Source: Novipirellula herctigrandis
Lineage (GTDB): Bacteria > Planctomycetota > Planctomycetia > Pirellulales > Pirellulaceae
NCBI GenBank assembly: GCA_007859835.1
Contig: SJPJ01000001.1
Location: 1,487,095 to 1,551,094 of the forward strand
Direction of reading: 5' to 3'
DNA: 64,000 nucleotides
Within the stretch, counting starts at the first letter, position 1. Each line of letters starts with the position of its first letter. The notes beneath the pieces were generated by a model. That model was given only the letters and a program-made list of their open reading frames with translations. It searched no databases and was not told the DNA's origin. The position numbers and the translations under genes are program-made. Shown in pieces: positions 9,186 to 54,710 of this stretch.

Positions 9186-9249
9186 CATCCTCCTTGATTT
9201 TTCACGTCCCGATTTGCTCGCAGCGCAGCGACCGGGAAACGAGGATCGG

Positions 9250-9278
9250 TTGGTGGCTTGACCGTGGCGCTCTATAAT
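9250..9278 (+). promoter_or_regulatory. Sigma-70-like promoter of nadA
   Basis: TTGGTG (9250-9255), a 17-base spacer and a perfect TATAAT (9273-9278) lie 33 bases upstream of the nadA ATG. Confidence 0.5.
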
Positions 9279-9311
9279 TCATGATCGCTGCTTGATTGCC
9301 TCCAACAGGAA

Positions 9312-10502
9312 ATGACTTTGAAACCCGTTTCGAACGAAAAGAACGCTCTTAATATTCCCGTGATTGCCGCTCCTGCGGATTCCGGTGCACTCCATTCGCT
9401 AAAACCTTATAAATCGCTCGAAGCCGACGAACTACAGTCGCGTATCGAAGCGGTGCGGAAACACTTTGGCGATCGGCTGTTGATTCTTGGCCATCATTAC
9501 CAACAAGACGAGGTGATCGAGCATTCGGATCTTCGTGGCGATAGCTATCAACTCAGCGAACGAGCGGCGAGTAGCACAGCGTGCGAGACGATTGTTTTTT
9601 GTGGTGTCCATTTCATGGCCGAAACGGCCGACATATTGGCCAACCGACCCCAAAAATTGGCTGAACGAGAGGGCCGTCGGATCACCGTGACATTGCCCGA
9701 CATGGCCGCAGGCTGCTCCATGGCAGACATGGCTGGCATCCGCCAAGTGGAAGCGGCTTGGGCCGACATGTCCGAAGTGATCGATACCGAGCGAGTCATT
9801 CCAGTGACCTATATCAATAGCGCCGCAAGCTTGAAAGCTTTCTGTGGTCGACACGGAGGAATTGTTTGTACGAGTAGCAACGCCCAGGCGGTTTTGGAGT
9901 GGGCGTTTGAACGAGGTGATCGAGTGTTCTTTTTCCCCGATCAACATCTCGGCCGCAACACGGCTTTAAAAATGGGGATCGAGGAATCGGAAATGCCCGT
10001 TTGGGATCCCTACCAATTAGAGTTAGGCGGAAACTCGGATGAGGCGATCGAACACAGCCGAGTGATTTTGTGGAAAGGGCACTGCAGCGTCCATCAAATG
10101 TTTCGCGCAGAGCATGTCGCAGGATTCCGCAAACAGTATCCCGGAATCAAAATCCTCGTTCACCCCGAATGCCCGCGAGAAGTGAATGATCTCGCAGATG
10201 TTTCGGGAAGCACTGGCAAGATTATCCAAACGGTTCGCAACAGCCCCGCCGGGACAAAATGGGCGATTGGAACGGAGTTGCATTTGGTGAACCGGTTAAA
10301 GGCCGAGCATCCGGAGCAGGAGATTCATTTCCTCAGTCCGGTGGTATGCATGTGTGCGACGATGTACCGGATTGATTTGCCACACCTGTGTTGGACGCTT
10401 GAAAACCTTCGCGATGGCGTTGTGGTTAACAAAATCGAAGTCGAGGAAGAGACTTCGAAGTGGAGTCTGATTGCATTGGAGCGGATGCTAGCGGTGAAAT
10501 AG
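9312..10502 (+). CDS. nadA: Quinolinate synthase NadA
   Basis: NadA condenses iminoaspartate with dihydroxyacetone phosphate to form quinolinate, the NAD precursor, using a [4Fe-4S] cluster. The 396-residue protein shows the family motifs ILGHHYQQDEV (about 58-68), GDSYQLS, CGVHFMAET (Cys97), TLPDMAAGCSMADMA, CTSSNA, GHCSVH (Cys258), HPECPREV and CMCATMYRIDLPHL (Cys346/348). Cys97, Cys258 and one of Cys346/348 are the likely cluster ligands. About 35 extra N-terminal residues make it longer than many family members. nadB and nadC are not in the window, so the pathway genes are dispersed, as often in planctomycetes. It is convergent with fabH (33-base gap). Confidence 0.96.
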   Translation: MTLKPVSNEKNALNIPVIAAPADSGALHSLKPYKSLEADELQSRIEAVRKHFGDRLLILGHHYQQDEVIEHSDLRGDSYQLSERAASSTACETIVFCGVHFMAETADILANRPQKLAEREGRRITVTLPDMAAGCSMADMAGIRQVEAAWADMSEVIDTERVIPVTYINSAASLKAFCGRHGGIVCTSSNAQAVLEWAFERGDRVFFFPDQHLGRNTALKMGIEESEMPVWDPYQLELGGNSDEAIEHSRVILWKGHCSVHQMFRAEHVAGFRKQYPGIKILVHPECPREVNDLADVSGSTGKIIQTVRNSPAGTKWAIGTELHLVNRLKAEHPEQEIHFLSPVVCMCATMYRIDLPHLCWTLENLRDGVVVNKIEVEEETSKWSLIALERMLAVK

Positions 10503-10535
10503 TAGCTCGTAGTAGCGCTCAGCGTCACGCGAATC

Positions 10536-11624
10536 CTACCATCGCATCAGTGCCGTTCCCCACGATAAACCAGCCCCGAAGCCGCAGAGCAAAACCAAAT
10601 CACCTCGTTCGAGACGCCCTTGAGCAATCGCGTCATCCAGCACGAGTGGGATGCTGGCTGCTGATGTATTGCCGTAGCGATCCAAATTCATCAGCACCTT
10701 CTCGGGTGCAAGCTTTAGGCCCGCGACTGCGGAATCGATGATTCGTTCATTCGCTTGATGCATCACGACCAACTTCAATTCGTCAGCCGTCACATTAGCA
10801 TCCGCAAGCACTTGTTCGATGCTCTCATCGATGACTCTTACCGCCCATTTGAAGACGCCACGACCGTCCATCGCCAAAAAATGCTCTCCATTGCCAAATG
10901 CTTCCGGGGTCAATTGGCGACGCGTTCCTCCGGCAGGGATGCGAAGCAAATCGGCTCCCCAACCTTCGCTGCATAATTGGTATGACAAGATTCCCGAGGA
11001 TTCCGTTTTCTCGGTTGGGGTTAGGATCGCTGCGCCGGCGCCGTCACCGAACAGGGGGAATGTCTTCACGTCTTTGGGGTCGACCGACCGGCTCATCAAA
11101 TCGGAACCGACCACCAAGGCACACTTACTGTTCCCGGTGGCAACAAATTGTCCCGCCGTCAACATTGCGTACATGAATCCGGCACAGGCAGCACTGACGT
11201 CCATCGCCGGAGCGACCGAGCCAAGGCGGCCTTGCAAGTAGCACGCAGTTGAGGGTGATGGATGGTCGGGGGTCATCGTGGCGACAATAATCAAGTCGAC
11301 TTCGTCAGCGGTGCGGCCAGCGGATTTGAGCGTTTTGAGAGCCGCTTCGTAAGCCAAGTCACTCGTGACTTGATCGGGGGCCGCGTGTCGTCGCTCTTTA
11401 ATACCCGTTCGGCGGATAATCCATTCGCTATCACAACCGAGAGCCGCCAGGTCTTCGTTGGTGACGATCTTCTCAGGCACGTAGGTGCCGATCCCCGCGA
11501 TCTGGACGCCAGCGATTTTACCCATCCGGCCTCTTGTGGCGATTGGGCTGGTGTGGCCTTCTTTCAAATCCGTTGTCGAGGCGTCCCGTGTTGTGTTTCC
11601 GGGAACCAGATTAGTGTCTGTCAT
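10536..11624 (-). CDS. fabH: 3-oxoacyl-ACP synthase III (FabH)
   Basis: FabH starts fatty acid synthesis by condensing acetyl-CoA with malonyl-ACP. The catalytic triad is visible: Cys147 in DVSAACAGF, His289 in MHQANERI and Asn319 in DRYGNTSAASIP (numbering from the ATG at 11624). Family phrases GTYVPEK, SEWIIRRTGIKERR and GDGAGAAIL confirm it. The frame is open further upstream to 11852, but that part has no family similarity. An internal ATG at 11525, preceded by AAGAGG, would give 330 residues, the usual family length, and is a real alternative start. No other fab genes are adjacent. Confidence 0.93.
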   Translation of the reverse strand: MTDTNLVPGNTTRDASTTDLKEGHTSPIATRGRMGKIAGVQIAGIGTYVPEKIVTNEDLAALGCDSEWIIRRTGIKERRHAAPDQVTSDLAYEAALKTLKSAGRTADEVDLIIVATMTPDHPSPSTACYLQGRLGSVAPAMDVSAACAGFMYAMLTAGQFVATGNSKCALVVGSDLMSRSVDPKDVKTFPLFGDGAGAAILTPTEKTESSGILSYQLCSEGWGADLLRIPAGGTRRQLTPEAFGNGEHFLAMDGRGVFKWAVRVIDESIEQVLADANVTADELKLVVMHQANERIIDSAVAGLKLAPEKVLMNLDRYGNTSAASIPLVLDDAIAQGRLERGDLVLLCGFGAGLSWGTALMRW

Positions 11625-37688: not shown

Positions 37689-38954
37689 ATGTTCAGCCGA
37701 ATTCTGAATTGCTGTTTGCCAATCATTTGTTTGATAACCTTGTCCTCGACATCCAATGCCCAACCCGGTGGCCCCGCCAGTGTCGTGGCAGCTCCCGTCA
37801 TCGAGCGAGATATTTCTGCGGAGCAGGCTTTCGTGGCGAATGTAAAACCGTGGCGAAGCGTGACAGTCGGCAGTGCCGTCGATGGCCGCGTGCTCGAATT
37901 TTTGGTCAAAGCGGGCCAAGAAATCGAAAAAGGTCAGCCCCTTTCTCAGCTTCGCACAAAAACGATTGAGATCGAAATCGCTGGCGCCCAAGCCGAATTG
38001 ACCCTGCGGCAAGCCGAACTGGAGGAACAACGAAACGGATCGCGACCGGACGAACTTGCCCTTTCCGAAGCATTGACCGAAGTCGCAGCAGCCAATAGCC
38101 AATATGCCAAGGCGAAACTTGAACGCGCCAAAACGCTATTCAACCAATCTACCAGTATGTCACAAGACGAATACGAATCGGCCCGCGCCGAAGCCTTAGT
38201 CGCAGCGGCCAGGGTAGCCGAAGCGAACAGTTCTTTTCGTCTCGTAAAAGAAGGACCTCGAAAAGAGAAAATCGAACAAGCCGTTGCGCGTGTGGAAGTC
38301 CAAAAACAACTTCTCGAAGGGCTAAAGGACCGCTTGGAAAAGTACACGGCACGGGCGCCTTTCAACGGATTCGTATCAGCCGAAATGACGCAAACCGGTG
38401 CATGGGTTCGGCAAGCCGACCCGATCGCGAATGTGGTCGAGATCGATCCGGTGGAAATCGAAGTCTACGTTCCGGAAGCGGCAATTCGGTTTGTCACACT
38501 TGGCGGAAAAGTCAATGTCTCGGTCGAGGCATTTCCCGACCAAACCTTCGAAGGAACCATTGAACGCATCGTACCGCTAGCCGACAATCGCGCAAGATCC
38601 TTTCCGGTACGTGTCCGAGTTGCCAATGCGAAACAAAATGGCCGTCATCGGCTACTGCCCGGAATGCTCGCGCGCGTCACCTTACCAGCAGGAACGCTCG
38701 AGCCAAGACTGTTGGTCCCCAAAGACGCACTGCAATTCGGTGGAGCCAGCACCGTGGTATTTAAGGTTGTTGAGAACAAGGCGATGGCTGTGCCAGTCAA
38801 GGTCGGGCCAGCGCTGAAAAGTTGGATTTCGGTTTCGCCACAACTTAGTAATCAATTAAACAAAGGCGACCTGGTAATCACGCGAGGCAACGAGCGGATA
38901 CGTCCCGGCCAAGATGTCGTGATCAACGAACAACAACCCGCCTTAGCGAACTAG
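37689..38954 (+). CDS. RND efflux periplasmic adaptor (membrane fusion protein)
   Basis: The adaptor links an inner-membrane RND pump to an outer-membrane TolC channel. The 421-residue protein has a signal peptide (MFSRILNCCLPIICLITLSSTSNA), a lipoyl half (GSAVDGRVLEFLVKAGQEIEKGQPLSQL), a long helical hairpin (about 95-225, Glu/Ala/Arg-rich), the second lipoyl half (ARAPFNGFVSAEMTQTGAWV), and a beta-barrel and membrane-proximal region (VEIEVYVPE to PGMLARVTLPAG). There is no lipobox Cys, so it is periplasmic with an N-terminal signal. It lies 65 bases before the RND permease, clearly one operon. Substrates cannot be inferred. Confidence 0.92.
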   Translation: MFSRILNCCLPIICLITLSSTSNAQPGGPASVVAAPVIERDISAEQAFVANVKPWRSVTVGSAVDGRVLEFLVKAGQEIEKGQPLSQLRTKTIEIEIAGAQAELTLRQAELEEQRNGSRPDELALSEALTEVAAANSQYAKAKLERAKTLFNQSTSMSQDEYESARAEALVAAARVAEANSSFRLVKEGPRKEKIEQAVARVEVQKQLLEGLKDRLEKYTARAPFNGFVSAEMTQTGAWVRQADPIANVVEIDPVEIEVYVPEAAIRFVTLGGKVNVSVEAFPDQTFEGTIERIVPLADNRARSFPVRVRVANAKQNGRHRLLPGMLARVTLPAGTLEPRLLVPKDALQFGGASTVVFKVVENKAMAVPVKVGPALKSWISVSPQLSNQLNKGDLVITRGNERIRPGQDVVINEQQPALAN

Positions 38955-39019
38955 CCTCCACTGTCGGCTATCAACCTCTCCAAACGCGACATCCCCTTTC
39001 ACCTTTCAAATATCCCTCC

Positions 39020-42000
39020 ATGCATCCGATCGAAGCTTGCGTTCGCAATCCTGTCAAAGTCGCTGTTGGTGCGCTTCTGCTCATTCTGTTTGGCACCATC
39101 GCACTGGTGCGAATGCCGATGCAGCTAACACCAGAAGTCCAAACGCCAACACTAACTATTTCAACCCGTTGGCCCGGAGCAAGCCCACAGGAAGTCGAAC
39201 GAGAAATCATTCAAGAACAGGAGGAACAACTAAAAAGCGTCGAAGGGGTCACCAAGATGACCAGCGAATCGATGGACTCCAGCGGTTCGATTTCGATGGA
39301 GTTTCTTGTCGGGACCAACATGGAGGAAGCGTTGCTGAAGGTCAACAGCCGACTGCAGCAGGTTCCGGAATACCCCGAAGAGTCGGACGAGCCAGTCATT
39401 TCAACAAGCAATTCATCTGACCGGCCAATCGCATGGTTTATCCTTAGCGCATTACAACCGACGCACGAACAAATCGAAGCGTTCGCCAACGAGCACCCCC
39501 AAACCAAAGAAGCACTCGCCCCCGTTCTCCGGGCTGGCAACCCCGGCGTCCGGTTATTGCGATTACGAGACATCGCGATAGCGCATCCCGAACTCCATCC
39601 GCTACTGCCGCCGGATTTGAACGTCCCACAGATGCGGCGGTTTGCAGAAGATTCCATCGAAGCAAAACTCGAACGCGTCAACGGCGTCTCCAACGCGAAC
39701 GTGCTCGGCGGATTGACCGATGAGATGCAAGTCATTGTCGACCCCCAACGATTGGCCGCACGAAACTTAACGATTGACGATATTCGGCGCGTTTTGCGAA
39801 ACCAAAACCGAGACACGTCTGGCGGCGATTATTGGGAAGGCAAACGCCGCTGGGTCGTTCGAACGCTGAACCAATTCCGTGATCCCGAACAAGTGGAAAA
39901 GCAAGTCATTACGGTTCGCGACGGAGTCCCGGTCTTCATCCGCGACGTAGCCTCAGTGCAGCTTGGGTACAAAAAGCCCGATGGCTTGGTTCGACGTTTC
40001 GGCGAATCCGCGATCGCAGTCAATGCCCTGCGGGAAACCGGCGCGAACGTGCTCGATGTGATGGACGGTCTAAAAACCGCCGTCAGCGAATTGAACAACG
40101 ACATACTCCGGGACAAAAAACTGCAACTTTTGCAGGTCTACGACGAAACGGAATACATTGACGCGTCGGTCGCATTGGTCAACCAAAACATCGTTGTTGG
40201 TGGAACACTCACGATGTTGGTATTGATGCTGTTTTTGCATCTCCAAATCCGCACAATTCTATTCGTCCCCATGATTGTCGGCGCAACAATCGCCGCGCTT
40301 CTAATCAGTCCTTGGTTTGGACTCGTCACGCTTGGCCTCATCCTGCTCGCTGGTTTCTGGTTCGCACGCGGTGCCTTAGTCGTCGGATTGGCGATTCCCA
40401 TTAGTATCATCGGAACGTTCTTGCTATTGAATTTGTGGGGACGCTCACTCAACGTGATCAGTTTGGCGGGAATGGCGTTCGCTGTGGGAATGTTGGTCGA
40501 CAACGCCGTCGTGGTGCTCGAAAATATTTTCCGTCACTACCAACAAGGCGACGAACCATTCGAAGCGGCAATCCGAGGCACGAAAGAAGTTTGGGGAGCC
40601 GTGTTGGCGTCGACCTTGACGACCCTGGCCGTTTTCTTGCCGGTCTTATTTGTCGAAGAAGAAGCGGGCCAATTGTTTCGTGATATTGCACTCGCTATTA
40701 GTGCGGCAGTTGGATTGTCGCTTATCGTCAGTATCACGTTGATCCCAACGGCGACGGCACGATTATTGAAACCTCACGGGTTGAAACCGAGCAGAGATCC
40801 ATCCAATCCCGACCCGTCCAAAATTGAATCTTCAACAAAGCATGTTGGATTGGCCAATGGTATCGTTAAATCGCTGGTCGCGTTTTCGTCGCGGTTCGTG
40901 AGTGCCGTTGTCGCGACCAACCGATTCTTTCAAAAAAGCCTTCTCCGCCGATTGGCGATGGTCGTTGTTTTGCTAGCCGTAACAGCATGCGTTAGCTATG
41001 CGTTATGGCCTAAGGTCGAATACCTGCCGACTGGAAACCGCAACTTGGTCTTTGGAATCGTGTTACCGCCGCCCGGATACAACCTCGACGAATTATCGCG
41101 TCTTGGCGAAGTGGTCGAAGAGCATTTGAAACCCTACTGGGATATCGACCCCCAAAACGCGAATGCCGAAGAATTAAAATATCCTGCGATCTACGACTTC
41201 TTTTACGTAGCCCGTGGTCGCCAAGTTTTCCTTGGCGTTCGATCCGTCGACCCGCAACGAAGCGGCGAACTCGTCCCGCTGATCCAAAGTGTTAGCTCTA
41301 AATTGCCTGGCACATTCGTGATCGCCAAACAGTCGAGTCTGTTCGAGCAAGGCTTAACAGCAGGGCGAACGATTGATGTGGAAATCACCGGACCGGAACT
41401 TGAAAAATTGGTTGCTTTGGGAGGTCAAGTACTTGGCCAAGTCGTTGGCGCGCGTGGTGAACCAGTCGTTCCTGATGCGCAGGCCCGCCCCATACCAAGC
41501 CTTGACCTAAGCAATCCCGAAGTTCACATTGTGCCGCGACTCATGCAAGCCGAAGAAATGGGAGTCAACGCGACAAGCTTGGGATACGCCGTGAACGCTT
41601 TGGTCGACGGTGCATTCGCCGCCGACTACTATATTGGCGGTGACAAGATCGACTTGACGATCGTGGGCAATCCCGAACAAGCGAGTTCATCACAAGACTT
41701 AATGTCGCTTCCAATCGCCACGCCTGGTGGTCAATTGGTTCCACTACTGTCATTGGCCGATATCGACTTATCGAGCGGGCCGGAACAAGTGAATCACCGG
41801 GAACGGCAACGAGCGATCACGATTGAAGTGTCACCGCCGGCCGACATAGCGTTGGAAGATGCCCTGGAGCGAATCGAGACGCAAATCATCGATCCGATGC
41901 GCAAATCAGGTCAACTTGCTGGCGGTTACCAGATTGGCCTATCCGGAACCGCTGATAAACTGCGTGACACGTGGTTGGCTCTCCGGTGGAATGTATTGTT

Positions 42001-42565
42001 AGCACTATTGATCACTTATCTATTGATGGCTGCATTGTTCGAAAGTTGGATCTATCCGCTGGTGATCATCATGAGTGTGCCGCTTGGGGCCGTCGGAGGA
42101 ATTCTTGGATTGCGATTGTTGGGCCTCTATTTGAGTTGGCAAGGGTTAACGCCACAGCCGCTCGACGTCCTAACGATGCTCGGTTTCGTGATTTTGATTG
42201 GGACGGTCGTAAACAACGCAATCTTGATTGTGCATCAGTCGTTAAATCTGATGCGTGAAGAAAACTACACATCGCGAAACGCTATTTTGGAAAGCGTGCG
42301 AACCCGGGTTCGACCAATCCTGATGACCACGGCAACAACGATTTTGGGGCTTTGCCCGTTGGTGCTGTTTCCAGGCAGCGGCAGCGAATTGTACCGAGGT
42401 CTCGGCAGCGTCCTACTAGGCGGCCTTCTGGTATCGACCTTTTTTACCTTGGTGTTCGTCCCCGTTCTTTTCCAGCTTTTCATGGATGCAAAGGAGACGA
42501 AATTGGTAAAATTGCCCAATGCGTTAAGAGATGATGCTATTCGTCCGGCGAAATGCAACGCTTGA
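39020..42565 (+). CDS. RND family efflux permease (AcrB-like)
   Basis: The 1181-residue protein has the RND architecture: first helix at about 13-33, a large porter loop (LTISTRWPGASPQEVEREI), helices 2-6, a second porter loop and helices 7-12. The proton-relay region reads AFAVGMLVDNAVVVLENIF, with Asp494 then Asn where many HAE pumps have Asp-Asp. Ending GTVVNNAILIVHQSLNL and 'RPILMTTATTILGLCPL' is typical. It has about 45-50 extra residues in the first porter domain (LQPTHEQIEAFANEHPQ to HPLLPPDLN) absent from standard pumps. Its own outer-membrane channel is not adjacent; two TolC genes lie further right. Operon with the adaptor upstream; the fxsA gene follows. Confidence 0.94.
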   Translation: MHPIEACVRNPVKVAVGALLLILFGTIALVRMPMQLTPEVQTPTLTISTRWPGASPQEVEREIIQEQEEQLKSVEGVTKMTSESMDSSGSISMEFLVGTNMEEALLKVNSRLQQVPEYPEESDEPVISTSNSSDRPIAWFILSALQPTHEQIEAFANEHPQTKEALAPVLRAGNPGVRLLRLRDIAIAHPELHPLLPPDLNVPQMRRFAEDSIEAKLERVNGVSNANVLGGLTDEMQVIVDPQRLAARNLTIDDIRRVLRNQNRDTSGGDYWEGKRRWVVRTLNQFRDPEQVEKQVITVRDGVPVFIRDVASVQLGYKKPDGLVRRFGESAIAVNALRETGANVLDVMDGLKTAVSELNNDILRDKKLQLLQVYDETEYIDASVALVNQNIVVGGTLTMLVLMLFLHLQIRTILFVPMIVGATIAALLISPWFGLVTLGLILLAGFWFARGALVVGLAIPISIIGTFLLLNLWGRSLNVISLAGMAFAVGMLVDNAVVVLENIFRHYQQGDEPFEAAIRGTKEVWGAVLASTLTTLAVFLPVLFVEEEAGQLFRDIALAISAAVGLSLIVSITLIPTATARLLKPHGLKPSRDPSNPDPSKIESSTKHVGLANGIVKSLVAFSSRFVSAVVATNRFFQKSLLRRLAMVVVLLAVTACVSYALWPKVEYLPTGNRNLVFGIVLPPPGYNLDELSRLGEVVEEHLKPYWDIDPQNANAEELKYPAIYDFFYVARGRQVFLGVRSVDPQRSGELVPLIQSVSSKLPGTFVIAKQSSLFEQGLTAGRTIDVEITGPELEKLVALGGQVLGQVVGARGEPVVPDAQARPIPSLDLSNPEVHIVPRLMQAEEMGVNATSLGYAVNALVDGAFAADYYIGGDKIDLTIVGNPEQASSSQDLMSLPIATPGGQLVPLLSLADIDLSSGPEQVNHRERQRAITIEVSPPADIALEDALERIETQIIDPMRKSGQLAGGYQIGLSGTADKLRDTWLALRWNVLLALLITYLLMAALFESWIYPLVIIMSVPLGAVGGILGLRLLGLYLSWQGLTPQPLDVLTMLGFVILIGTVVNNAILIVHQSLNLMREENYTSRNAILESVRTRVRPILMTTATTILGLCPLVLFPGSGSELYRGLGSVLLGGLLVSTFFTLVFVPVLFQLFMDAKETKLVKLPNALRDDAIRPAKCNA

Positions 42566-42677: not shown

Positions 42678-43217
42678 ATGTTTTTTCGTTTGCTTGTCGC
42701 TTTTATCGTCGTCCCGCTCGTCGAATTGGTTCTGTTACTCCGTTTGGCGGATGCCACTAGCGTGATGACAACGCTTGCGATCGTGATCATCACGGGCGTG
42801 ATCGGATCAGCGTTGGCGCGTCGCGAAGGGGTGTTGGCATGGTACCGTTTCCGTAGTGCGCTAGCCGAAGGCCGCATGCCGAGTCAAGAAATCCAAGATG
42901 GCTTGATGGTCGTTTTTGCAGCTGCTCTTCTTCTGACACCTGGGTTGCTAACCGACTCTCTCGGTTTCATCCTGCTAATACCTACAGGGCGAACTTTGAT
43001 CCGAAAGTACGTCTTGAGCCGCTACATCCGTGCAGTCGACGTCCACGTCAATACAACCGCGTCAACATCGGGATTCGAATCGCGAACGCATACGGATTCA
43101 ACCTATCCAGCACCCGATAGCGATCGTTTTGGCCCCACACCAAGGTCACCCCGACCAAATTCCAGCGCAAGCGGAAAGTCAAAAACGATCGACGCCAAAT
43201 CGTTCCGACGAAAATAG
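42678..43217 (+). CDS. fxsA: FxsA family membrane protein
   Basis: The ATG at 42678 gives 179 residues starting MFFRLLVAFIVVPLVELVLLLRL, the FxsA N-terminus. It continues with ITGVIGSALARREGVLAWYRFRSALAEGRMPSQEIQDGLMVVFAAALLLTPGLLTDSLGFILLIPTGR, split here as it spans several helices. FxsA of E. coli relieves phage T7 F-exclusion; its normal role is unknown. The last 60 residues are a polar Ser/Thr/Pro tail. The 3' end overlaps the convergent M50 fusion gene by 39 bases. It probably shares the RND transcript. Confidence 0.9.
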   Translation: MFFRLLVAFIVVPLVELVLLLRLADATSVMTTLAIVIITGVIGSALARREGVLAWYRFRSALAEGRMPSQEIQDGLMVVFAAALLLTPGLLTDSLGFILLIPTGRTLIRKYVLSRYIRAVDVHVNTTASTSGFESRTHTDSTYPAPDSDRFGPTPRSPRPNSSASGKSKTIDAKSFRRK

Positions 43218-45404
43218 TCGTTGCCAGATCGACGCCTTGTCGACTTCGATAGCGATCATCGCTGTCGAGCGAATGACAAGCGGCGCAATAGAAGAATCAC
43301 TTTCGTTACTGGAAAAGCCGCGACGATCAAGTCGAATCCGCACCTGATAATAGGACTCATTCGACCTACGAAAACGCGAACTCAGCGTCCCGTCTTTGGC
43401 AAACTCGTCCGGTAATCGCTCAATCGGTGACGAAGCCACCTCGACGACTGTTCCCTTGACCGCCCCGAGTTGTCGGTCGTGCATACGAACTTTCACATCC
43501 TGGCCCGGGCGCACCCAAGCAATTTGCTTTTCCGAGATGAGCGTGATTCCGTCGTAGTGGTCGGGCGAACCGATCGTACACAAGGTCGTTCCTGTTTCGA
43601 GCCAAGCACCGCGATTCTCTGCGGCCATCGGTGTGGCGTACCACGTTGGCATCATTTGCTCTCGATGATTTCGTGATCCGACCATCCGCACACGCGACTC
43701 GGTGCAATAGATCCTCCCCGCCGTGGGTGCATGTATTGTTAGCCGCTCAGCATCTTGATGTAACAACTCGATGCGTCGTTCTAGACTTTCAATGGACTCA
43801 AGCAGCACCGGCAATTTTTCGGATTGGCGAAACTGGCCACGCAATTGACTTTCAATGGATGCCAATTCCACTCGGCGGCTAGCTAAATCCGATTCCGCTT
43901 TGATCCGCTCCCGTTGCATATCCGCATTGGAAAGCCGGGCAATTGGTTCGCCCGCTTTAACCCGATCCCCGTCTGTTGCCGAAGCATCGATCCGCCCCGC
44001 AACCGTCACAAAGACTTCGCTCGCCTCGCGAGGCACCACCGACATAGGCCCAGTCACGGAACGAGGTAACGGCAAAAACAAACCGACTACGCCAATGATG
44101 GAACCGATTGCCGTGACAAAAAACCGACGCCGACTTCCAAGCGGTTGATAACCGCCGCGTCGTACGCCAGCTGGCTTTTCCAAAATCGGTTTGGCAAATC
44201 GAACCACAGCCGTAATCAAGAGCCCCATAATTACGACACTGACGAAACCATCCACATTTGCAGCCTCGGCTGCTCCAAAAGCAATCATGCCAATCGCGAA
44301 ATACACCATCCCGCGATAGATCGTACTGGAAAGCCAGTAGGTTGCTAAGAAAAGCTTCGACGTTTTGCGTTGGAATTTCGGTCCTTGATCGATCAAGCGG
44401 CTCGCCGCAGCATCACCCCAAACCCAACGCCTTAGTCCCCGACGAATCATCGCCGACGCTTCGCCGCCCAAGTTCGGGACGCCGATCAAGTCCGAAAAGA
44501 TGTAGTAGCCATCGTATCGCAAAAGTGGATTGCCGTTAAATAGGATAGTACTGACACTACAAACCACCATCACTACCACACAAACATCACGCACCGACGA
44601 GTCGTCGATAAATATCCATATCAATGTCGCGACTGCAGCAATCACCAACTCGGCCAACATTCCCGCTGCGGAAACAACGATACGTTTCCATCTTTCGGGA
44701 AGCAACCAAGCATCCGACACATCGCAATAAAGAACCGGCATACCAAACAGCAGCATCACTCCGATTTGTCGGCATTCAGCACCAAACGCACGGCATGCAA
44801 TTGCATGAGCCAATTCGTGGACCAGTTTCGTTGCCGAAATTGCCAAAAAGAGCAAGATTGCCAAATCGCTGACGCGACGGCTTGCAACCACTGAAACATG
44901 CTCGGCGATCTTGTCAAACTGAAACAAACCAATGGCAATCGCGATTACGATCAACAATAACGCTACGATGGCGAATGGCATTTGCAAAAACGGCCGAATC
45001 CGTGGCATCAAACCATCGAGCCATTGGCCCACAGCGACCCCAGGAAGCCGTATCGCCAACGGTTGGCTCCATGGTTTGGGTTTTGCAGGAATCGGCTCTT
45101 CGAGTGAATTTGGCTCTAGACGCTGATCGAGTAACCGAGCACAAAGCAAACCCGATCGATCGGCATCGCCGAGGAATCGCACAATCGATTCGGATGCAAC
45201 ATAGTCCGGTGCGAAACGCTGCGAACAGGCGCTTACAATTTCCTCAACGCTGCGGTCACCATCGGCAAGTTCGAGGATCGCCCGTTCGCGATCGCTCACA
45301 TAGAAGTAGTCACTCGTAAGTGGATCACGGAGAATCCAAACCGTAGCCTTACCCATCGCAATTTGACGCCATGTCAAATCAGGCCGAAGCCGTGGCAAGC
45401 TCAT
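43179..45404 (-). CDS. PqqD-like/site-2 protease/HlyD fusion protein
   Basis: This 741-residue protein joins three modules. Residues 1-95 form a winged-helix PqqD-like domain (TVWILRDPLTSDYFYVSDRERAIL, then LADGDRSVEEIV), the fold that recognises peptide leaders in RiPP systems. Residues about 140-450 are an M50 membrane metalloprotease domain with HELAH (196-200) and the second site-2 protease motif NGNPLLRYDGY (Asn292, Asp298). Residues about 455-740 are a periplasmic lipoyl/HlyD part with a helical hairpin and beta-barrel ('VAGRIDASATDGDRVKAGEPIAR', 'IHAPTAGRI', IAWVRPGQDVKVRM). The stop codon of the FxsA gene overlaps its 3' end. It follows the next adaptor by an ATGA overlap, so the two are translationally coupled. 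Substrate unknown. Confidence 0.85.
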   Translation of the reverse strand: MSLPRLRPDLTWRQIAMGKATVWILRDPLTSDYFYVSDRERAILELADGDRSVEEIVSACSQRFAPDYVASESIVRFLGDADRSGLLCARLLDQRLEPNSLEEPIPAKPKPWSQPLAIRLPGVAVGQWLDGLMPRIRPFLQMPFAIVALLLIVIAIAIGLFQFDKIAEHVSVVASRRVSDLAILLFLAISATKLVHELAHAIACRAFGAECRQIGVMLLFGMPVLYCDVSDAWLLPERWKRIVVSAAGMLAELVIAAVATLIWIFIDDSSVRDVCVVVMVVCSVSTILFNGNPLLRYDGYYIFSDLIGVPNLGGEASAMIRRGLRRWVWGDAAASRLIDQGPKFQRKTSKLFLATYWLSSTIYRGMVYFAIGMIAFGAAEAANVDGFVSVVIMGLLITAVVRFAKPILEKPAGVRRGGYQPLGSRRRFFVTAIGSIIGVVGLFLPLPRSVTGPMSVVPREASEVFVTVAGRIDASATDGDRVKAGEPIARLSNADMQRERIKAESDLASRRVELASIESQLRGQFRQSEKLPVLLESIESLERRIELLHQDAERLTIHAPTAGRIYCTESRVRMVGSRNHREQMMPTWYATPMAAENRGAWLETGTTLCTIGSPDHYDGITLISEKQIAWVRPGQDVKVRMHDRQLGAVKGTVVEVASSPIERLPDEFAKDGTLSSRFRRSNESYYQVRIRLDRRGFSSNESDSSIAPLVIRSTAMIAIEVDKASIWQRLFSSERFGVDRF

Positions 45405-46486
45405 GAGCCACCTGCGATCATCTTCATTCGCATCCCCGGTAGCACCTGTTGCCCAGGATTGTCGAATTCAACCCAAAAGCGGATTTGGTTGTTTACGGGA
45501 TCGATCTCGGGACTCACAAAAAGATCGGTCCCCCGAAAAGAAGCATTCTCTCCTGCTTCACCGCTGAGGGATAATCGCAAAACTTTTTTATTTAGCAAAC
45601 GATTACGAAACATCGCATCAACGTACCCCTCGGCTCGCAGTCGATCGAGTCGGACGACCCGTGCGACCGGATCACCGGCTTTGACCCATTCTCCCTTGCG
45701 CCGCATCACCTCAACCACGACACCGTCAAAAGGAGCCAGAATCTGATGCCGAGAAACGGTCAGCTCGGCAAGCGATTTTCGGTGCGAATGCAGTTCGGCT
45801 TGTAGCCGATCGACCCGTTGCTTGTACTCTGCTTGGTCCACGGCAACGATCGACTCGTCGATGGCGATCTTCTGCACGGCCACGGCTTGTTGTTCCGCCC
45901 GAGCGTTCAATGCGCCAACCTGTTGCTCGAACCGGGCTTGCTGAGTTTCCAGTTTAGACCGCTCATACGCTAACGTTAGCGACTCGATTTCAGAGCCCGA
46001 CACGCTATCGACATACTTATTCCTGGCATCAACAGCCCGCTGTAACTCGTTCTTGGCGACGCTTTCGAATTTGGATGCTGCCAGAACTCGAAGATTGTTT
46101 TTCGCGTTTTGAACCGCGATATCCAGTTCTATCTGTCTCTGTTTGGCCAATTGTTGTTGCCGCGTAGAAGCTTTTTCGGCAAGAGCGACCTCGGTCTTGT
46201 CGCGGCTGTTCTCATCCGCAATTGTCACTTGAGTGGCTGCAATTTGTCGCTCAATCGTCGCCTGACGATCATCCAGCCGCGCGAGCAAGTCACTTACTTT
46301 TACCGAGTCCCCTTCGCGCACGACCACGTCGCAAATCATACCGGTTTCCATCGCTGGCACCTGAGCAGAATCGATCGCGGTGACAATGAGATCGTCGAGT
46401 CCACTAAATGGCTCTTCACCTTGCGCGGCCGCAGCAACCAATCCCGCAAGGATGACAAGCAGATGATAAGTCCAAAAGCGAATCAT
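45401..46486 (-). CDS. HlyD-family periplasmic adaptor
   Basis: The 361-residue protein starts with a signal peptide (TYHLLVILAGLVAAAAQGEE), then has the lipoyl half VPAMETGMICDVVVREGDSVKVSDLLARL and a long helical hairpin (about 75-245, Gln/Glu/Ala-rich with KLETQQARFEQQ). The second lipoyl half is ILAPFDGVVVEVMRRKGEWVKAGDPVARV, followed by a beta-barrel with 'VSPEIDPVNNQIRFWVEFDNPGQQVLPGMRMKM'. Overlap of its stop with the start of the M50 fusion gene (ATGA) and only 4 bases to the upstream gene place it in the middle of a three-gene operon. It should bridge the inner and outer membranes with the TolC encoded divergently. Confidence 0.9.
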   Translation of the reverse strand: MIRFWTYHLLVILAGLVAAAAQGEEPFSGLDDLIVTAIDSAQVPAMETGMICDVVVREGDSVKVSDLLARLDDRQATIERQIAATQVTIADENSRDKTEVALAEKASTRQQQLAKQRQIELDIAVQNAKNNLRVLAASKFESVAKNELQRAVDARNKYVDSVSGSEIESLTLAYERSKLETQQARFEQQVGALNARAEQQAVAVQKIAIDESIVAVDQAEYKQRVDRLQAELHSHRKSLAELTVSRHQILAPFDGVVVEVMRRKGEWVKAGDPVARVVRLDRLRAEGYVDAMFRNRLLNKKVLRLSLSGEAGENASFRGTDLFVSPEIDPVNNQIRFWVEFDNPGQQVLPGMRMKMIAGGS

Positions 46487-46490
46487 GATT

Positions 46491-48395
46491 TTATACCTTT
46501 GCCCGAATCCACTCGATCAAACCACGAAACCATACAAAACCGATGGCCCGTCTACCAGCAAAAACCTCAACTTTCGCGGTCGCTCCAGCTCGTAAACCTT
46601 TGTCGTTTGCCGCAAAATCATTACCCTTGGAAAAGTCCACCGGGCAATTGACCATTCCTTTGACGACCCAATCGCCACGAGCATTTTGATGCGTAACTTC
46701 GTCAACATTGCTTAGAACCGCTTCATACGTTTGATCGGAATGTGAACGCAATGAAAACCGAATTAGACAGGGCTTCGTATGTTGTTGAGACAAAACGTAA
46801 CCACTATCCGAATCATCGATTTCAATTTCCAACTTCCATCCCGATTCAGGGTCAATCACATCCGCAATAAATTGACCTCGCTCGATTGGTCGATTTGACA
46901 ACCTTTGCCGCATATCCCAATGATCGATCTTGCCCGCGATCGGACTGGTCACATTCAATTCGGCTTGCTGATGACGAAGCAGCGAGAGTTGCCCATCGAG
47001 TCCCTTGAGTTGTGACTTGAGCACTTGCTCGGTTGCAGACGCCGAAAAATCAGCCGCCCCGTTCCCAGACGCACGAGACCGTTGTGCGGACGCGAGACTC
47101 GCTTTCACCCTCGCCTTCCCACCTTCAAGTTGCTGAATCCGCGTCTCCAATTCTCGGTTTCGTATCACCACGATTGAATCGCCGGGCTTAACTACGTCGC
47201 CGTTGTCGACCGACAAAGCTAACACAGTGCCATTGGTTGGTGCAAAAATGCTCCGACGAACGGCCGCGACCACTCGACCTTCCGCAGGAACGTAAAAGTC
47301 AATCGGGATGATTGACATGGCAATCACGCCAACCGCGACCAAACCAGCGAACAACCCTACACGTTTCGCCGTGCGCAACTGCAACATTTTATCGACGAAT
47401 ACTCGCATACCGCTGATATCTCGTTCGAGAGCGTTGGCAATCGCTGTATCAACAAGCAAGTGTATTTCGGACAGCCGCTGGAGCATTCCCGGACGCTTGG
47501 GATGCGAGAATCGCTCTAACATGACGATGATGTCTCGATGATCCCCGTCGCACTCCACTCTCGATACAGCGACTTGACGCGAGCCGGATTCGACCAAGTA
47601 GGGGTCGAGAGACTTTTTGATTGCAGCCGGGACATCCTCAGCATTGCCGACGGTGAATTCAAAATCAGAGTCACTTGAATCGATCACACTGGCGAGCTCT
47701 TGCACTCGGCGGCCAAGCCGTGTGCGCGTGTCAACGCTGGTCGACGTACTCGTCGCGATCAGGCAAAAGGTGCTTTCGCTATGTTGCTTCAGCAAACAGA
47801 CGCGATCAGCATCAACATACGTCGAGATTGTCTGTGCAATATGGCGGAATGAATCCGCAAGCCCAGATCCACGATTCATATTGCATACGATTGAATCACG
47901 GTCGACCCGGCGACTCTGTTTGCCGCGAAGCCGTGACACTTCACGCTTTAGATAGACTGTCGCGGCGATTTCCGCGGTGGCTTGCGTCATCTGAGCGAAC
48001 GGTTCATGCCTAGCTAAGGCAACCGCCTCGCCCCATCGAACGTCGACTTGAAATTCGGACTCTTCATCAATCGTAACACAGGCCACCAGATGCCGATCAT
48101 CTCGCCACGTTGGTGTTTTCGGGTCACCAGAATGCCGTTCGCTCGGTTGTGAAATCACCTCGATACCATCACGCGCCAATTCGATATCGCGAGATTCCCC
48201 GGAGAACGTTTCACTGGCTCGCACGACAACCGAGCGAGCCGAAGCAGTTTGCCGCAGTTGTTTCGCGAAAGAGTCAAAGAAGTCGTCCTCATCCACTCCC
48301 AAAACAGGCAGCGGCGACCGCGACATCTGGTCGATTTTGTCAACCAATGCGGTGGCGTCTTTCCAAACGTCGTCGGGTGCGGGGGTTGGGCTCAT
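46491..48395 (-). CDS. GAF-like domain fused to HlyD adaptor
   Basis: The 634-residue protein has a cytoplasmic N-terminal half without signal peptide: a helical start, a mixed region (about 40-145), and a GAF-like domain (about 165-325; SGLADSFRHIAQTISTYVDADRVCLLK, 'QVAVSRVECDGDHRDIIVMLERF'). One membrane helix follows (about 344-364, VGLFAGLVAVGVIAMSII), then a periplasmic HlyD part: GRVVAAVRRSIFAPTNGTVL, DNGDVVKPGDSIVVI, a hairpin of only about 70 residues, 'NVTSPIAGKID' and a beta-barrel. GAF domains normally bind small ligands or sense redox state. The first gene of the operon. Expected topology would let a cytoplasmic signal influence an export complex. Confidence 0.8.
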   Translation of the reverse strand: MSPTPAPDDVWKDATALVDKIDQMSRSPLPVLGVDEDDFFDSFAKQLRQTASARSVVVRASETFSGESRDIELARDGIEVISQPSERHSGDPKTPTWRDDRHLVACVTIDEESEFQVDVRWGEAVALARHEPFAQMTQATAEIAATVYLKREVSRLRGKQSRRVDRDSIVCNMNRGSGLADSFRHIAQTISTYVDADRVCLLKQHSESTFCLIATSTSTSVDTRTRLGRRVQELASVIDSSDSDFEFTVGNAEDVPAAIKKSLDPYLVESGSRQVAVSRVECDGDHRDIIVMLERFSHPKRPGMLQRLSEIHLLVDTAIANALERDISGMRVFVDKMLQLRTAKRVGLFAGLVAVGVIAMSIIPIDFYVPAEGRVVAAVRRSIFAPTNGTVLALSVDNGDVVKPGDSIVVIRNRELETRIQQLEGGKARVKASLASAQRSRASGNGAADFSASATEQVLKSQLKGLDGQLSLLRHQQAELNVTSPIAGKIDHWDMRQRLSNRPIERGQFIADVIDPESGWKLEIEIDDSDSGYVLSQQHTKPCLIRFSLRSHSDQTYEAVLSNVDEVTHQNARGDWVVKGMVNCPVDFSKGNDFAANDKGLRAGATAKVEVFAGRRAIGFVWFRGLIEWIRAKV

Positions 48396-48509
48396 GACTC
48401 AAACTTCAACGAAAACACCCATTTTATACGAAAAAACGGATGTTTCCGCCGAGCATTCCGCTGTTTCACGCTACTTCTTGGCTGGGTTGGATGAATCGCA
48501 GCGATTTGA

Positions 48510-50483
48510 TTGATCCCGCATGTTCCAAATTTACGAATAAGAGAAAGGATACGGATTGTACCGGTCCTGCGGTTGTTCCGCGCACCGACTCCATCAACGA
48601 CAGCTGTTGCCAACGTGCCCTCACGCACCTACCAATCCTACGATTCCTCGACACATCGACGGCACCGAAGACTTCGCGCGTGCGTCCATGCGGTTTTGGC
48701 GTGCGCAATCACCGTAGCGACGGTAACGGGATGCCGAAGTCATCACAATTTCACGGAAACAGTCTGCAACGACACTGCGTGCATCGACACCATCATGCAA
48801 CATGTCGACGCTGGGGCGCCGGCAAAGACGATCCTCGACACAACGATCCCGCCGATCACCATTAGAACGATCGAAGATTTTGATGCTGTGGCTTACTGTG
48901 ACCTGACGCTCGATGAAACGATCCAAACGGCGCTTCAACATTCCGAAGTCATGCGAGACCTCGGTGCGACCGTTCTACGGGCTCCGCAAACGCTAACGAC
49001 ACAACAAACCAAATCGCTCGCGGAACTCGACCCGCAAACCAGTATCGAGTCCGCTTTGTCCGCCTTTGACGCCCAACTCTACGCGATGGGCAAATTCCAA
49101 AACAATGACCGTCGATTCAATAACCGGTTTTTCGGTGGCGGTGCAAACGCCTTCAAACAAGATTCGCACGACTATGTTGCCCAATTATCAAAACGCACCG
49201 CGACCGGTGCTGAACTTGCAGTACGGAGCGTCACCGATTACGACGCGAACAACGCAACCGGCAACATCACCAACAGTGCATGGCAGAGTCAATTGCATGC
49301 CGAGATCCGTCAACCGCTAATGCAAGGTGGCGGTCTGCAATTCAACCGAATCGCAGGCCCCGCGTCTCAACCGGGCATTTACAACGGTGTTTTAGTTGCG
49401 AAAGTCAACAACGACATCACAAATGCCAAATTCCGCCAAGGGACTCGCGACTACGTCAGCAACGTGATCAACGCTTATTGGGATTTGTACTTTGCCTACC
49501 GCGACTTAGACGCAAAACGCGAAGCACTCGAACGAAGCCGCCAAACATGGCAAAGCTACGAAGCGCAAAAATCGAGCAATCGCAAATCAGGGGCAGCCGA
49601 AGCACTCGCTCGCGAGCAATACTTCCGATTCCAAAGCGAACTACAAGATGCCGTCGCAGGGAAATTGATCCAACGGACTCAGGTTAACAATTCCACTTCT
49701 GGCGGGACGTTTGCCGGACTCGGCGGAGTCCTGGCGGCTGAACGTCGTTTGCGTTTACTGGTCGGATTGCCGATAGCAGACGGATCGTTGCTCCGCCCAA
49801 TGGATGAACCACTGATTGCTCCGATGACATTCGATTGGGATTCAATCTCCGTCGAAGCAATCCGTTTGCGAAGCGAGTTGCAGCAACAACGATTGCTTGT
49901 CAAACGACGCGAAATGGAAACGCTCGCTGCAAAAAACTATTTGATGCCATCTCTTGATTTAGTGACAATCTACCGTGTTCGCGGCTTGGATCAGGATTTA
50001 GCGGGTGACGGTTCGGCATTAAAGCAACTTGGAACGTTTGATTTCCAAGAATACGAAGCCAGCTTGGAATTCAAGTTGCCCGTTGGACTTCGCCAAGGAT
50101 ACTTGGCCGTTCGGCATGCCAAGACGCAAATGGTTCGCGATCGAGCGGTGTTGCAAGAGCAAGAGCGCCAAGTGCTGCACGATTTAGCAGCCGTGGTGGG
50201 CGAGAGTGACCGTGCCTTCACGCAGATGGAGACAAACATGAACCGTTACCTGGCCGCCAGCGATGCGCTCGAAGTACTAGAAACGAGTCGCGAAGCAGGG
50301 ATGCCGGTGAACTTGGAACAACTGTTGGACGCACAACGGCGGGTCAGTGAAGCACAAAGCCGCTACTTCTTGTCACTCACGGAATACACAATTGCAGCTA
50401 AGAATGTTCAATTCGAAAAAGGGACGTTACTGCAAGCCGCGAATCTAGTTCTATTTGATGATACCTACCCAATAGGCATATAG
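48510..50483 (+). CDS. TolC-family outer-membrane lipoprotein
   Basis: The protein is a TolC-like outer-membrane factor; the cleavage region is RLRACVHAVLACAITVATVTGC, with a lipobox ending at Cys. The start is uncertain: TTG at 48510 gives 657 residues and GTG at 48615 gives 622. Helical hairpins carry the family phrases LTLDETIQTALQHSEVMRDLGA, INAYWDLYFAYRDLDAKREALERS, 'VGLPIADGSLLRPMDEP', IRLRSELQQQRLLVKRREMETLAAKNYLMPSLDL, and the closing 'LDAQRRVSEAQSRYFLSLTEYTIAAKNVQFEKGTLL'. It is divergent from the PqqD/M50/HlyD operon with a 114-base gap, which fits co-regulation as the exit duct of that system; the RND operon could also use it. Confidence 0.88.
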   Translation: MIPHVPNLRIRERIRIVPVLRLFRAPTPSTTAVANVPSRTYQSYDSSTHRRHRRLRACVHAVLACAITVATVTGCRSHHNFTETVCNDTACIDTIMQHVDAGAPAKTILDTTIPPITIRTIEDFDAVAYCDLTLDETIQTALQHSEVMRDLGATVLRAPQTLTTQQTKSLAELDPQTSIESALSAFDAQLYAMGKFQNNDRRFNNRFFGGGANAFKQDSHDYVAQLSKRTATGAELAVRSVTDYDANNATGNITNSAWQSQLHAEIRQPLMQGGGLQFNRIAGPASQPGIYNGVLVAKVNNDITNAKFRQGTRDYVSNVINAYWDLYFAYRDLDAKREALERSRQTWQSYEAQKSSNRKSGAAEALAREQYFRFQSELQDAVAGKLIQRTQVNNSTSGGTFAGLGGVLAAERRLRLLVGLPIADGSLLRPMDEPLIAPMTFDWDSISVEAIRLRSELQQQRLLVKRREMETLAAKNYLMPSLDLVTIYRVRGLDQDLAGDGSALKQLGTFDFQEYEASLEFKLPVGLRQGYLAVRHAKTQMVRDRAVLQEQERQVLHDLAAVVGESDRAFTQMETNMNRYLAASDALEVLETSREAGMPVNLEQLLDAQRRVSEAQSRYFLSLTEYTIAAKNVQFEKGTLLQAANLVLFDDTYPIGI

Positions 50484-52578: not shown

Positions 52579-54255
52579 CTATATTTCTCGGGCAAACATC
52601 GGGTTCCATCGAATTCGATGGCCCGCTTCGGTGACACTCGATGTCGACTTGTGTGATCCCCAACTCGCCTCGGTTGCACTGTTGAGCGTCGGTTTTGGGA
52701 GAGGCTCTTCGTCTTCGGGATCGATTGCTGGCGTGTCGGCATCATCGTCTGATGGTGCATTCGCTGGCGGATCAATCTCGACGCCCTTCAATTTTGTTTG
52801 AGGCTCACCGTCGTAAACCGCCGGTGGCATCAACACCGAATGACCCGATTCGGCACTTTGCGAAACGATTGGCGAACTGATGATCGGGGAACTAACAATC
52901 GGGGAACTGGCAATTGGCGAACTGGCAATTGGCGAGGAAGTCGTTGGGTTTGAGAACGAGGAATAGCCACTGACAATCGCCGGACTGAACGGATCATAGT
53001 AAGACAAAGGGACTCGCTGGACCACTTGCTTGGGTACCATTTTCGTTTCCGTGTAGGGAACGTACTTTTGACGAGTCACCGGGCGCATTACTTTCCGTGT
53101 GATTGCTTCCTGCTCGTAATATTGGACCTGTACAGGTTCTTTTTTGGTTTCGTAAACCATTCGCGTCGATTGTACGGGAACCTTGCGAACTTGCTCTTCC
53201 GTCACCCATCGTTGTTGTTGAACAGGCACCTTTCGGGTCAATGTCTCGGTCACAGGACGCTGGACGACATAGGGTACCTTGCGGACTTCGGTGGTCGGGA
53301 TCATGCGTGTGGTTTGAACCGGCACCTTCTGGGTCATGGTTTCGGTCACCATCCGTTGGACTTGAACTGGTACCGTTTGCGTCCTCAACTCGGTTTGCAT
53401 CTTTTGAACTTGAACCGGAACCTGAACTTGTTTCACTTCCGGCATGTAGCTCGTCTGAGCAACTTGTTGTTGAATGTAGTTCGGGCGATAAGCCATTTGG
53501 GTTTGGACCGTTGGCGGCGTCAATTGTGGCGTAACCGCATACGCACCGCGAACTCGTGCAAAGATTCCCAAAGGCCCTGGTGTTGCATACGCGTTGCGAA
53601 CGTATTGTGCCCGATATTGCATTTGCCCAGGCGTGACGACTTGTTGCGGAACATAACCGCCCGCGTCAACGGTTTGCGATTTGTAAGTCGTTACCGGTTT
53701 GAGCGTGGTGTACTGTTGAGTTTGGTATTGTGTTTCCACAACGGGACGTTGCACCGCATATTGTTGCTGTTGGTACTGCGTTTCGACCACTGGCCGTGCG
53801 ACGGCGTATTGTTGTTCGTAGTACTGAGTCTCGACCACTGGCTTGAATGTCGTGTATTGCTCTTCTCGCATCGCAGTCTCGGTAACATAGCGAGTCTGCG
53901 TTACCGTTTCATCGCGATAGGCAGTTTCAACCACCGGTTTCCAAACGGTATAGCGTTCTTCGCGGAACGAGGTTTCAACCACAGGTCGAGCGACTTTATA
54001 TTCTTTTTCTTCCGTACGCGTCTTGAGGACCGGCCGATAACTCGTCACTTCCTCTTCTACGTATTCGGTTTCGTACGTCAAACGCATCCGTTGGACAGTT
54101 TCAGGCTGTAGCACCGTCTCGCACTGGAGGCGATAAGTGGGTTCGAAACAACACGCGTCCTGCGAAAAGGAAGTTCCGCTGAGGACAGTTGCAAAAACTA
54201 GAACAACAATGCCAGCTAGCAGAGAGTGTTTGGGGCGATTCATCGTGTTTGTCAT
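52579..54255 (-). CDS. YTV-type cell-surface repeat protein
   Basis: From the ATG at 54255 (558 residues; 54243 is an alternative) it has a signal peptide (LLAGIVVLVFATVLSGTSFS) and a short Cys-containing segment (DACCFEPTYRLQCE). Two repeat regions follow. The first has PVVET units about 20 residues apart with YTV, YAV or YTT between them. The second has VPVQxxRMVTET and RKVPVQ units. This is the composition of the YTV proteins of Rhodopirellula, reported as abundant cell-wall or surface proteins in planctomycetes. The C-terminal part holds SSPIA/SSPIV tandem repeats and an acidic tail. No catalytic motif. Probably structural. Confidence 0.85.
   Translation of the reverse strand: MTNTMNRPKHSLLAGIVVLVFATVLSGTSFSQDACCFEPTYRLQCETVLQPETVQRMRLTYETEYVEEEVTSYRPVLKTRTEEKEYKVARPVVETSFREERYTVWKPVVETAYRDETVTQTRYVTETAMREEQYTTFKPVVETQYYEQQYAVARPVVETQYQQQQYAVQRPVVETQYQTQQYTTLKPVTTYKSQTVDAGGYVPQQVVTPGQMQYRAQYVRNAYATPGPLGIFARVRGAYAVTPQLTPPTVQTQMAYRPNYIQQQVAQTSYMPEVKQVQVPVQVQKMQTELRTQTVPVQVQRMVTETMTQKVPVQTTRMIPTTEVRKVPYVVQRPVTETLTRKVPVQQQRWVTEEQVRKVPVQSTRMVYETKKEPVQVQYYEQEAITRKVMRPVTRQKYVPYTETKMVPKQVVQRVPLSYYDPFSPAIVSGYSSFSNPTTSSPIASSPIASSPIVSSPIISSPIVSQSAESGHSVLMPPAVYDGEPQTKLKGVEIDPPANAPSDDDADTPAIDPEDEEPLPKPTLNSATEASWGSHKSTSSVTEAGHRIRWNPMFAREI
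52862..52938 (-). repeat. 15-bp (5-residue-spaced) tandem repeat in YTV gene
   Basis: Five units encode SSPIA, SSPIA, SSPIV, SSPII and SSPIV, coding on the minus strand. Confidence 0.8.
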
Positions 54256-54710
54256 CCGAGGGACTGCTGAACAAAAGCAGGTCGGTTCCATCACCGACCA
54301 CGGCAGCAATTGAGGATTTCGCTGCATCTTTAAGATTAGGCAGCCCTTGAAGAAAAAGTAGGGGAAACCTCGAAAAAAAGCCACTTTTCATTCAAGTTCA
54401 CCCTCGTAGGTTAACCAATCTTCCAAGCCTGTTTATTTGACGCTACAGATGTTGCATTTTGACATCATGCCAATTTGCGGTACGACATTTAGGCATCCAT
54501 GGGACACTTTTGCGGGCCAAGCAATCGTCTTTGGTAAGAGCATTACCCTCATCGAGGTGCGGTTGTCACAGGCCAAAACCGGGCCCGACACCGCTATGAC
54601 AATACAGGTCCTGGCCTCCATTCAAGCCGAAATGCCTCCATTCAACCTAGAAACGTACAAGATGTTTCTTTCAGAAGCGAACCGCGTCCCTTTCGCAGAG
54701 ATTCGGTGTC

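Follow-up and report, generated by a model that had tools for sequence, protein, structure and literature searches.

Four genes in the window (the 64-kb stretch of DNA analysed here) probably encode an inner-to-outer-membrane exporter of the SecA_DEAD/M50-HlyD family, the cargo class of which, as read from gene linkage, would be large LEPR-XLL surface proteins. The gene set is conserved, its protease motif is intact, and many family members in the Planctomycetota and Proteobacteria adjoin giant genes with LEPR-type starts. Since relatives so often stand beside LEPR-like giant genes, the cargo is probably giant proteins, not small peptides.

Three of the genes form a unit on the minus strand. 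Gene 1 (43179-45404, 741 aa), identified as an ORF and by Pfam, encodes a fusion of a PqqD-like domain, an M50 site-2 protease and an HlyD part; gene 2 (45401-46486, 361 aa) encodes an HlyD/RND-type periplasmic adaptor with a signal-peptide-like N-terminus; and gene 3 (46491-48395, 634 aa) encodes a long adaptor with a lipoyl/HlyD part. Gene 4 (48510-50483, plus strand, 657 aa) is divergent and encodes a TolC/OEP outer membrane factor, a probable lipoprotein. Genes 3 and 2 are separated by 4 bases (46487-46490), genes 2 and 1 share an ATGA overlap (45401-45404), and 114 bases (48396-48509) lie between the three-gene unit and the TolC gene, coordinates which agree with those given by a sequence-only reading of the same DNA; the spacings in the cluster are 4, -4, 114 and 127 bases. 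The nearest RND operon (37689-42565, plus strand) is convergent to the cluster, as that reading had stated, and carries its own adaptor, with the end of its permease gene ~600 bases from the cluster. Between the two lies an FxsA gene which overlaps gene 1 by 39 bases. No ABC transporter or ATPase was found among nine window proteins scanned with Pfam, no SecA_DEAD gene lies near the cluster, and no LExR giant occurs in the whole 64-kb window.

Profile searches recovered the M50, HlyD and OEP components that the sequence-only reading had named, while its PqqD domain is borderline: the match in the fusion (1.1e-4, 22.9 bits) falls just under the Pfam cut-off of 23.4. PqqD was found at E<=0.01 in 4 of 14 aligned fusion proteins, and PqqD family is the RefSeq name of some plasmid relatives. 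The fusion comprises a PqqD-like region (~1-90), the M50 part (~140-450; 1.6e-8) and a periplasmic HlyD part (~450-741; HlyD_3, 7.4e-8), with six hydrophobic segments by crude hydropathy and, from ~residue 447 on, profile matches to solved HlyD-type adaptors. HExxH (196-200) and D298 of NPLLRYDG are invariant in all 14 aligned proteins (the window's and 13 relatives); the site-2 protease motif is intact in sequence, and proteolysis is predicted. The 361-aa adaptor matches HlyD_3 (2.4e-16) and TIGR01730 (106 bits, above the cut-off of 94.9) and has a hydrophobic segment at its N-terminal residues 1-19. The 634-aa adaptor (HlyD_3, 3.7e-9) has a single hydrophobic segment (347-365) after a long N-terminus, overlooked earlier, which would lie on the cytosolic side. 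A GAF domain occurs there in 7 of 17 aligned proteins of this type (E<=0.1), and was undetected in the window's own adaptor in the same comparison. The TolC ORF matches OEP (2.7e-13). Its description as a lipoprotein gains from a lipobox-like TVTGC ending at ~residue 75, although the start codon is uncertain, the first codon being TTG and an early ATG being absent.

An M50-HlyD match, with M50 and HlyD in one polypeptide, is present in 117 of 119 family genomes. The host genome (9.5 Mb, 23 contigs) encodes six further M50-HlyD proteins; a seventh match falls on the HlyD region of the adaptor in the window itself and is not counted as a paralogue. Named planctomycete relatives include Rubripirellula, Rhodopirellula, Lacipirellula, Schlesneria and others (among the best 80 of 588). 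The sequence-only reading had suggested looking for the four-gene linkage in other genomes, and the order divergent TolC, long HlyD, HlyD, M50-HlyD is indeed kept in 12 of the 20 loci retrieved from among the 24 nearest in other genomes (L022, L024, L026-L029, L031, L034, L036, L038-L040, where L038 retains just a fragment of TolC at the edge of its contig). At the remaining eight, an adjoining TolC or HlyD gene was not called or contig ends cut the locus. The relatives' loci are not consistently accompanied by an ABC or RND pump, in keeping with the earlier statement that the cluster has no pump of its own, and the export duct of HlyD and TolC parts proposed there is likewise supported. Two candidate components were rejected. 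A 759-aa protein with an ABC-type-permease-like start (by eye), upstream of one paralogue (L019), is absent from the listed stretch of the relatives L049 and L050 and does not represent a conserved energiser; the genes downstream of the cluster vary, by eye, among closest relatives (L022/L025, L026/L027). In-frame stops were seen in two M50-HlyD copies (G001:C26:33331-34305 and G103:C1:5296319-5298139), which are possibly decaying paralogues.

The sequence-only reading knew of no described system with this set; a related one has been published. The portion of Kamneva 2015 (PMC4452313) considered here describes a secondary SecA_DEAD encoded with M50-, HlyD- and GAF-HlyD-type proteins and sometimes OEP, suggests SecA as the ATPase, notes that some associated proteins are encoded elsewhere in the genome and calls the broader biological role completely unknown. 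The window set, with its M50 protein bearing an HlyD part and its further HlyD protein, is a SecA-less relative of the locus set out in that portion. Both comprise M50-HlyD and HlyD proteins; the published locus also has a GAF-HlyD protein, whose long-adaptor counterpart in the window shows no detected GAF, and sometimes OEP. Both lack an ABC transporter, and the published locus, too, occurs in Planctomycetes and Proteobacteria. They differ in that SecA_DEAD is present there and missing from the window locus, where TolC is divergent. The cargo class is the new element relative to that portion of Kamneva 2015 (PMC4452313), in which role and cargo are left open.

A SecA_DEAD gene accompanies 21 of the 75 M50 loci from 13 genomes, two of these being the host's own paralogous clusters at C1:413 kb and C2:564 kb (TolC-SecA-HlyD-HlyD-M50); the four other paralogues are without it. 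With linkage in only this part of the loci, supply in trans seems plausible. The host genome has five SecA_DEAD matches, of which the strongest (C1:7205527, 1247-aa frame) was taken as canonical SecA, and two (C1:4336254 and 6810359) have no M50 gene on their 20-kb stretch. The SecA at C1:4336254 shares 61-64% identity with the SecA proteins encoded within the M50 loci of L054, L078 and L083. Among the 117 family genomes in which M50 was matched, 116 have at least two SecA_DEAD matches, the exception (G112) having a single match; the sole M50 match of one genome (G110) is weak, at 3.3e-4. The two family genomes without M50 (G024, G102) have one SecA_DEAD match each, a co-absence which is weak evidence because SecA and M50 genes are often linked and both MAGs are 91% complete. 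An ORF with an LExR motif (QLEARVVLAAN) lies ~6.6 kb from the host's unlinked secondary SecA (L020:17798-19999, 8993-11155). A 580-aa divergent SecA_DEAD at L021:8633-10375 has no M50 gene and, by eye, sigma factor- and Ser/Thr kinase-like neighbours.

The association with LEPR-XLL proteins was measured in 13 genomes of 10 genera, 12 of them single-contig and the other the window's own (23 contigs). We used 76 long M50-HlyD matches reaching the M50 part, leaving aside one short fragment and those short matches confined to HlyD, and took 91 matches to NF012209 (LEPR-XLL) at E<=0.5. Of the 91, 15 lie no more than 10 kb from an M50 locus, compared with 1.72 expected, a count reached in 0 of 2000 rotations (some genome sizes in this test being rounded). 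Within 20 kb the count is 18 of 91 (3.16 expected); within 5 kb the excess is weak, at 4 of 91 against 0.94, with 40 of 2000 rotations reaching it. For NF012209 matches of at least 17 bits, 9 of 49 lie within 10 kb (0.94 expected) and 1 of 49 within 5 kb, which 796 of 2000 rotations reach. PF07595 (Planc_extracel), another N-terminal planctomycete motif, yielded 2 of 150 against 2.67 expected (best 150 of 385), and the linkage to M50-HlyD is therefore specific to LEPR-XLL. As a general cargo mark, PF07595 was rejected: it is not enriched and persists in both genomes without M50 matches.

A pattern search (LExR-x-[LVMF][LF], in ORFs of at least 700 aa within ~9.5 kb) covered 75 of the 76 loci, L090 being dropped as its M50 ORF was not called, and 39 control stretches placed at set genome fractions, not at random (a fortieth, L256, overlaps the unlinked SecA region and was dropped). 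An LExR ORF lies near 28 of the 75 M50 loci, comprising 24 of 39 with TolC and 4 of 36 without; controls gave 5 of 39, and as the pattern also matches chance sequences, three of these five look like such matches. Among loci of the window architecture (long adaptor plus divergent TolC), 8 of 11 have an LExR ORF (L031, L036, L057, L060, L089, L091, L105, L119; Fisher p 3e-4, uncorrected for relatedness, 5 genera), the three without it being the window, L028 and L040; in L089 and L091 a short HlyD gene was not called in the interval from adaptor to M50. In the named set, an LExR gene occurs at 7 of the 15 loci built in this way (L146, L161, L162, L164, L193, L194, L212), some stretches ending early. 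Lacipirellula limnantheis combines the window's gene order with a 1594-aa RRLEPRRMLDAA protein. In the host itself, which has 10 LEPR-XLL matches above the cut-off (three only with neighbours in frame), a LEPR-XLL ORF (3972-aa frame) starts ~275 bases from TolC in the C2 cluster, divergently. Four LExR giants were scanned with Pfam: one contains cadherin-like, DUF4347 and Ig-like domains, one cadherin, SdrD_B and dockerin domains, and two gave none. Our searches of the open-licence PMC literature turned up no export route described for LEPR-XLL giants; each of the two papers containing the term uses it a single time, one of them for a ~8000-aa Vibrio protein, in a passage which does not give an export route.

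Further instances come from a second phylum. Searches of plasmids with M50-HlyD (tblastn) returned 79 and 80 records, including Azospirillum (13), Rhizobium (3), Escherichia (18), Citrobacter (8) and Streptomyces (8). The 23 plasmid loci read are all from Alpha- or Betaproteobacteria, with the Escherichia, Citrobacter and Streptomyces records left out, and include near-duplicates or shared plasmids (L258/L266, L269/L279, L278/L280, L260/L263). By profile, the M50 protein is present in 23 of 23 and SecA in 13 of 23. A giant ORF (at least 1,300 aa on the stretch) stands beside the cluster in 19 of 23, sometimes with DUF3467 or another gene intervening, and a LEPR-type start occurs in 9 of 23, the starts of part of the giants having been read. 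RefSeq uses the name LEPR-XLL in Pontibrevibacter, Thalassospira and one Pseudosulfitobacter locus; LEPR or a near-variant start was seen in Methylosinus, Mesorhizobium, Niveispirillum, a second Pseudosulfitobacter locus (FEPR) and Variovorax (LEARYMFDAA). The full operon of Methylosinus sp. C49 (plasmid pMSC49a) comprises LEPR giant, DUF3467, HlyD, M50, SecA, HlyD and TolC. No LEPR start was found in Alisedimentitalea (at the annotated start) or in Azospirillum brasilense (where the gene is split and the reading did not include the beginning of its first half). No giant adjoins the cluster in Magnetospirillum (a 492-aa ELWxxDGT protein is there instead), Azospirillum B510, Rhizobium johnstonii (where the start of the record cuts the locus) or Tistrella, the last having a LEPR-type ORF on the same stretch. 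In Thalassospira, Niveispirillum and Variovorax (L262, L264, L272), a stretch without SecA holds an annotated TolC and a LEPR-type giant. SecA-less clusters thus also pair with LEPR giants, as the window set would require. The giant of Azospirillum brasilense (NZ_CP032347, 505434-517978) is annotated as two overlapping genes, a DUF4347 part and an Ig-like part. A DUF3467 protein of ~100-150 aa, assigned by likeness, adjoins M50 in planctomycete loci that lack TolC (L014:7477-7869, L043, L054, L055, L056, L079, L081, L085); in Proteobacteria, following RefSeq naming, DUF3467 lies between the giant and an HlyD gene (L259-L262, L268, L274). It is perhaps a further component of the exporter, and was not seen in the window cluster.

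In the exporter we propose, the N-terminal region of the cargo would be recognised by the PqqD-like domain of the fusion, with the GAF-type adaptor perhaps acting as a gate. The unfolded chain would be driven through the inner membrane by a SecA-type DEAD ATPase, encoded elsewhere in the case of the window; its leader would perhaps be trimmed by the M50 site at or near the membrane, and the three HlyD parts and TolC would lead it outside in one step. Recognition, cleavage, ATPase coupling and transport are all postulated from the gene content, and the window copy, with no linked giant gene, would keep the LEPR-XLL cargo class of the wider family. Whether these systems amount to a separate one-step secretion type for proteins of ~1,000-16,000 aa in Planctomycetota and Proteobacteria is an evenly balanced question. 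Such a type would pair an N-terminal LEPR-XLL export signal with an HlyD-TolC duct; a SecA-type ATPase would stand in for the ABC transporter, and a PqqD-M50-HlyD protein would read the signal, gate the passage and remove the leader. The window would then represent a trans-energised, GAF-gated subtype uncoupled from its cargo gene. The tie between machinery and cargo offers a testable answer to how giant adhesin-like proteins come to the surface in planctomycetes and many alphaproteobacteria, and would place SecA-type motors within a secretion system reaching the outer membrane.

Other explanations were weighed against this exporter. The sequence-only reading had suggested a peptide or lipopeptide cargo, and a RiPP-like route, with the leader bound by PqqD, cut by M50 and the product leaving via HlyD-TolC, would account for the likeness of the fusion to RiPP proteases. 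The daptide protease model (NF041824) matches residues 19-337, spanning the PqqD-like region as well as the shared M50 core, at 8e-45; its 153.5 bits fall under the cut-off of 300, as do the 49 bits (5e-13) of the epipeptide protease LiaK/YydH model (NF058609) under its cut-off of 225. Gene 2 is matched weakly by an NHLP bacteriocin HlyD model (NHLM_micro_HlyD; 45 bits, cut-off 156). The window protein differs from these proteases, however, in its fused HlyD and in having no precursor in the cluster. Because the gaps inside the cluster are too small for a precursor gene and LEPR giants adjoin many relatives' loci, we set peptide cargo aside as very unlikely. It is also quite unlikely that the adaptors and TolC serve other pumps in trans, as in drug or metal efflux, while the M50 protein plays a regulatory role. 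The adaptors do belong to the RND/HlyD superfamily and an RND permease gene ends close by, but that operon is convergent and supplied with its own adaptor, an RND-like permease was seen by eye only in L050, of a different subtype (among stretches with large ORFs listed), and M50 and HlyD are parts of one polypeptide almost throughout the family.

It appears unlikely that the window clade, having lost the linked giant gene and SecA, took on a different cargo or turned to regulated intramembrane proteolysis, a reading which draws on the phylogeny. In a FastTree of 104 M50 proteins, read for topology only, the window groups with L022-L028 and L127, and the LExR-linked L031, L036 and L105 stand beside this group, with further LExR-linked groups near. 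The window and its nearest relatives form one group in which LExR gene and SecA are both absent nearby (no LExR giant near L022-L028 or L138-L140). Against such a switch, all four genes persist with an intact protease motif, and the host genome has LEPR-XLL matches and two SecA_DEAD genes elsewhere.

The proposed exporter shares features with several known systems. Canonical type I secretion also employs an HlyD adaptor and TolC, with an ABC transporter and its ATPase, of which none was found among the nine window proteins scanned. Giant adhesins of the LapA/RTX type are exported by type I secretion and resemble the present case in their HlyD-TolC duct and very large repeat proteins; here, the ABC ATPase is missing, the shared cargo motif (LEPR-XLL) is N-terminal and a protease is fused to an adaptor. 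PCAT/NHLM peptidase exporters combine a protease, the reading of a leader and HlyD within a single export pathway, with a C39 peptidase where the window set has M50; the latter lacks the ABC part, and giant cargo is proposed for it. Elsewhere in the window, a minus-strand gene at 52579-54384 encodes a protein of 601 aa in which the YTV motif of Pfam (PF07639) occurs in three stretches.
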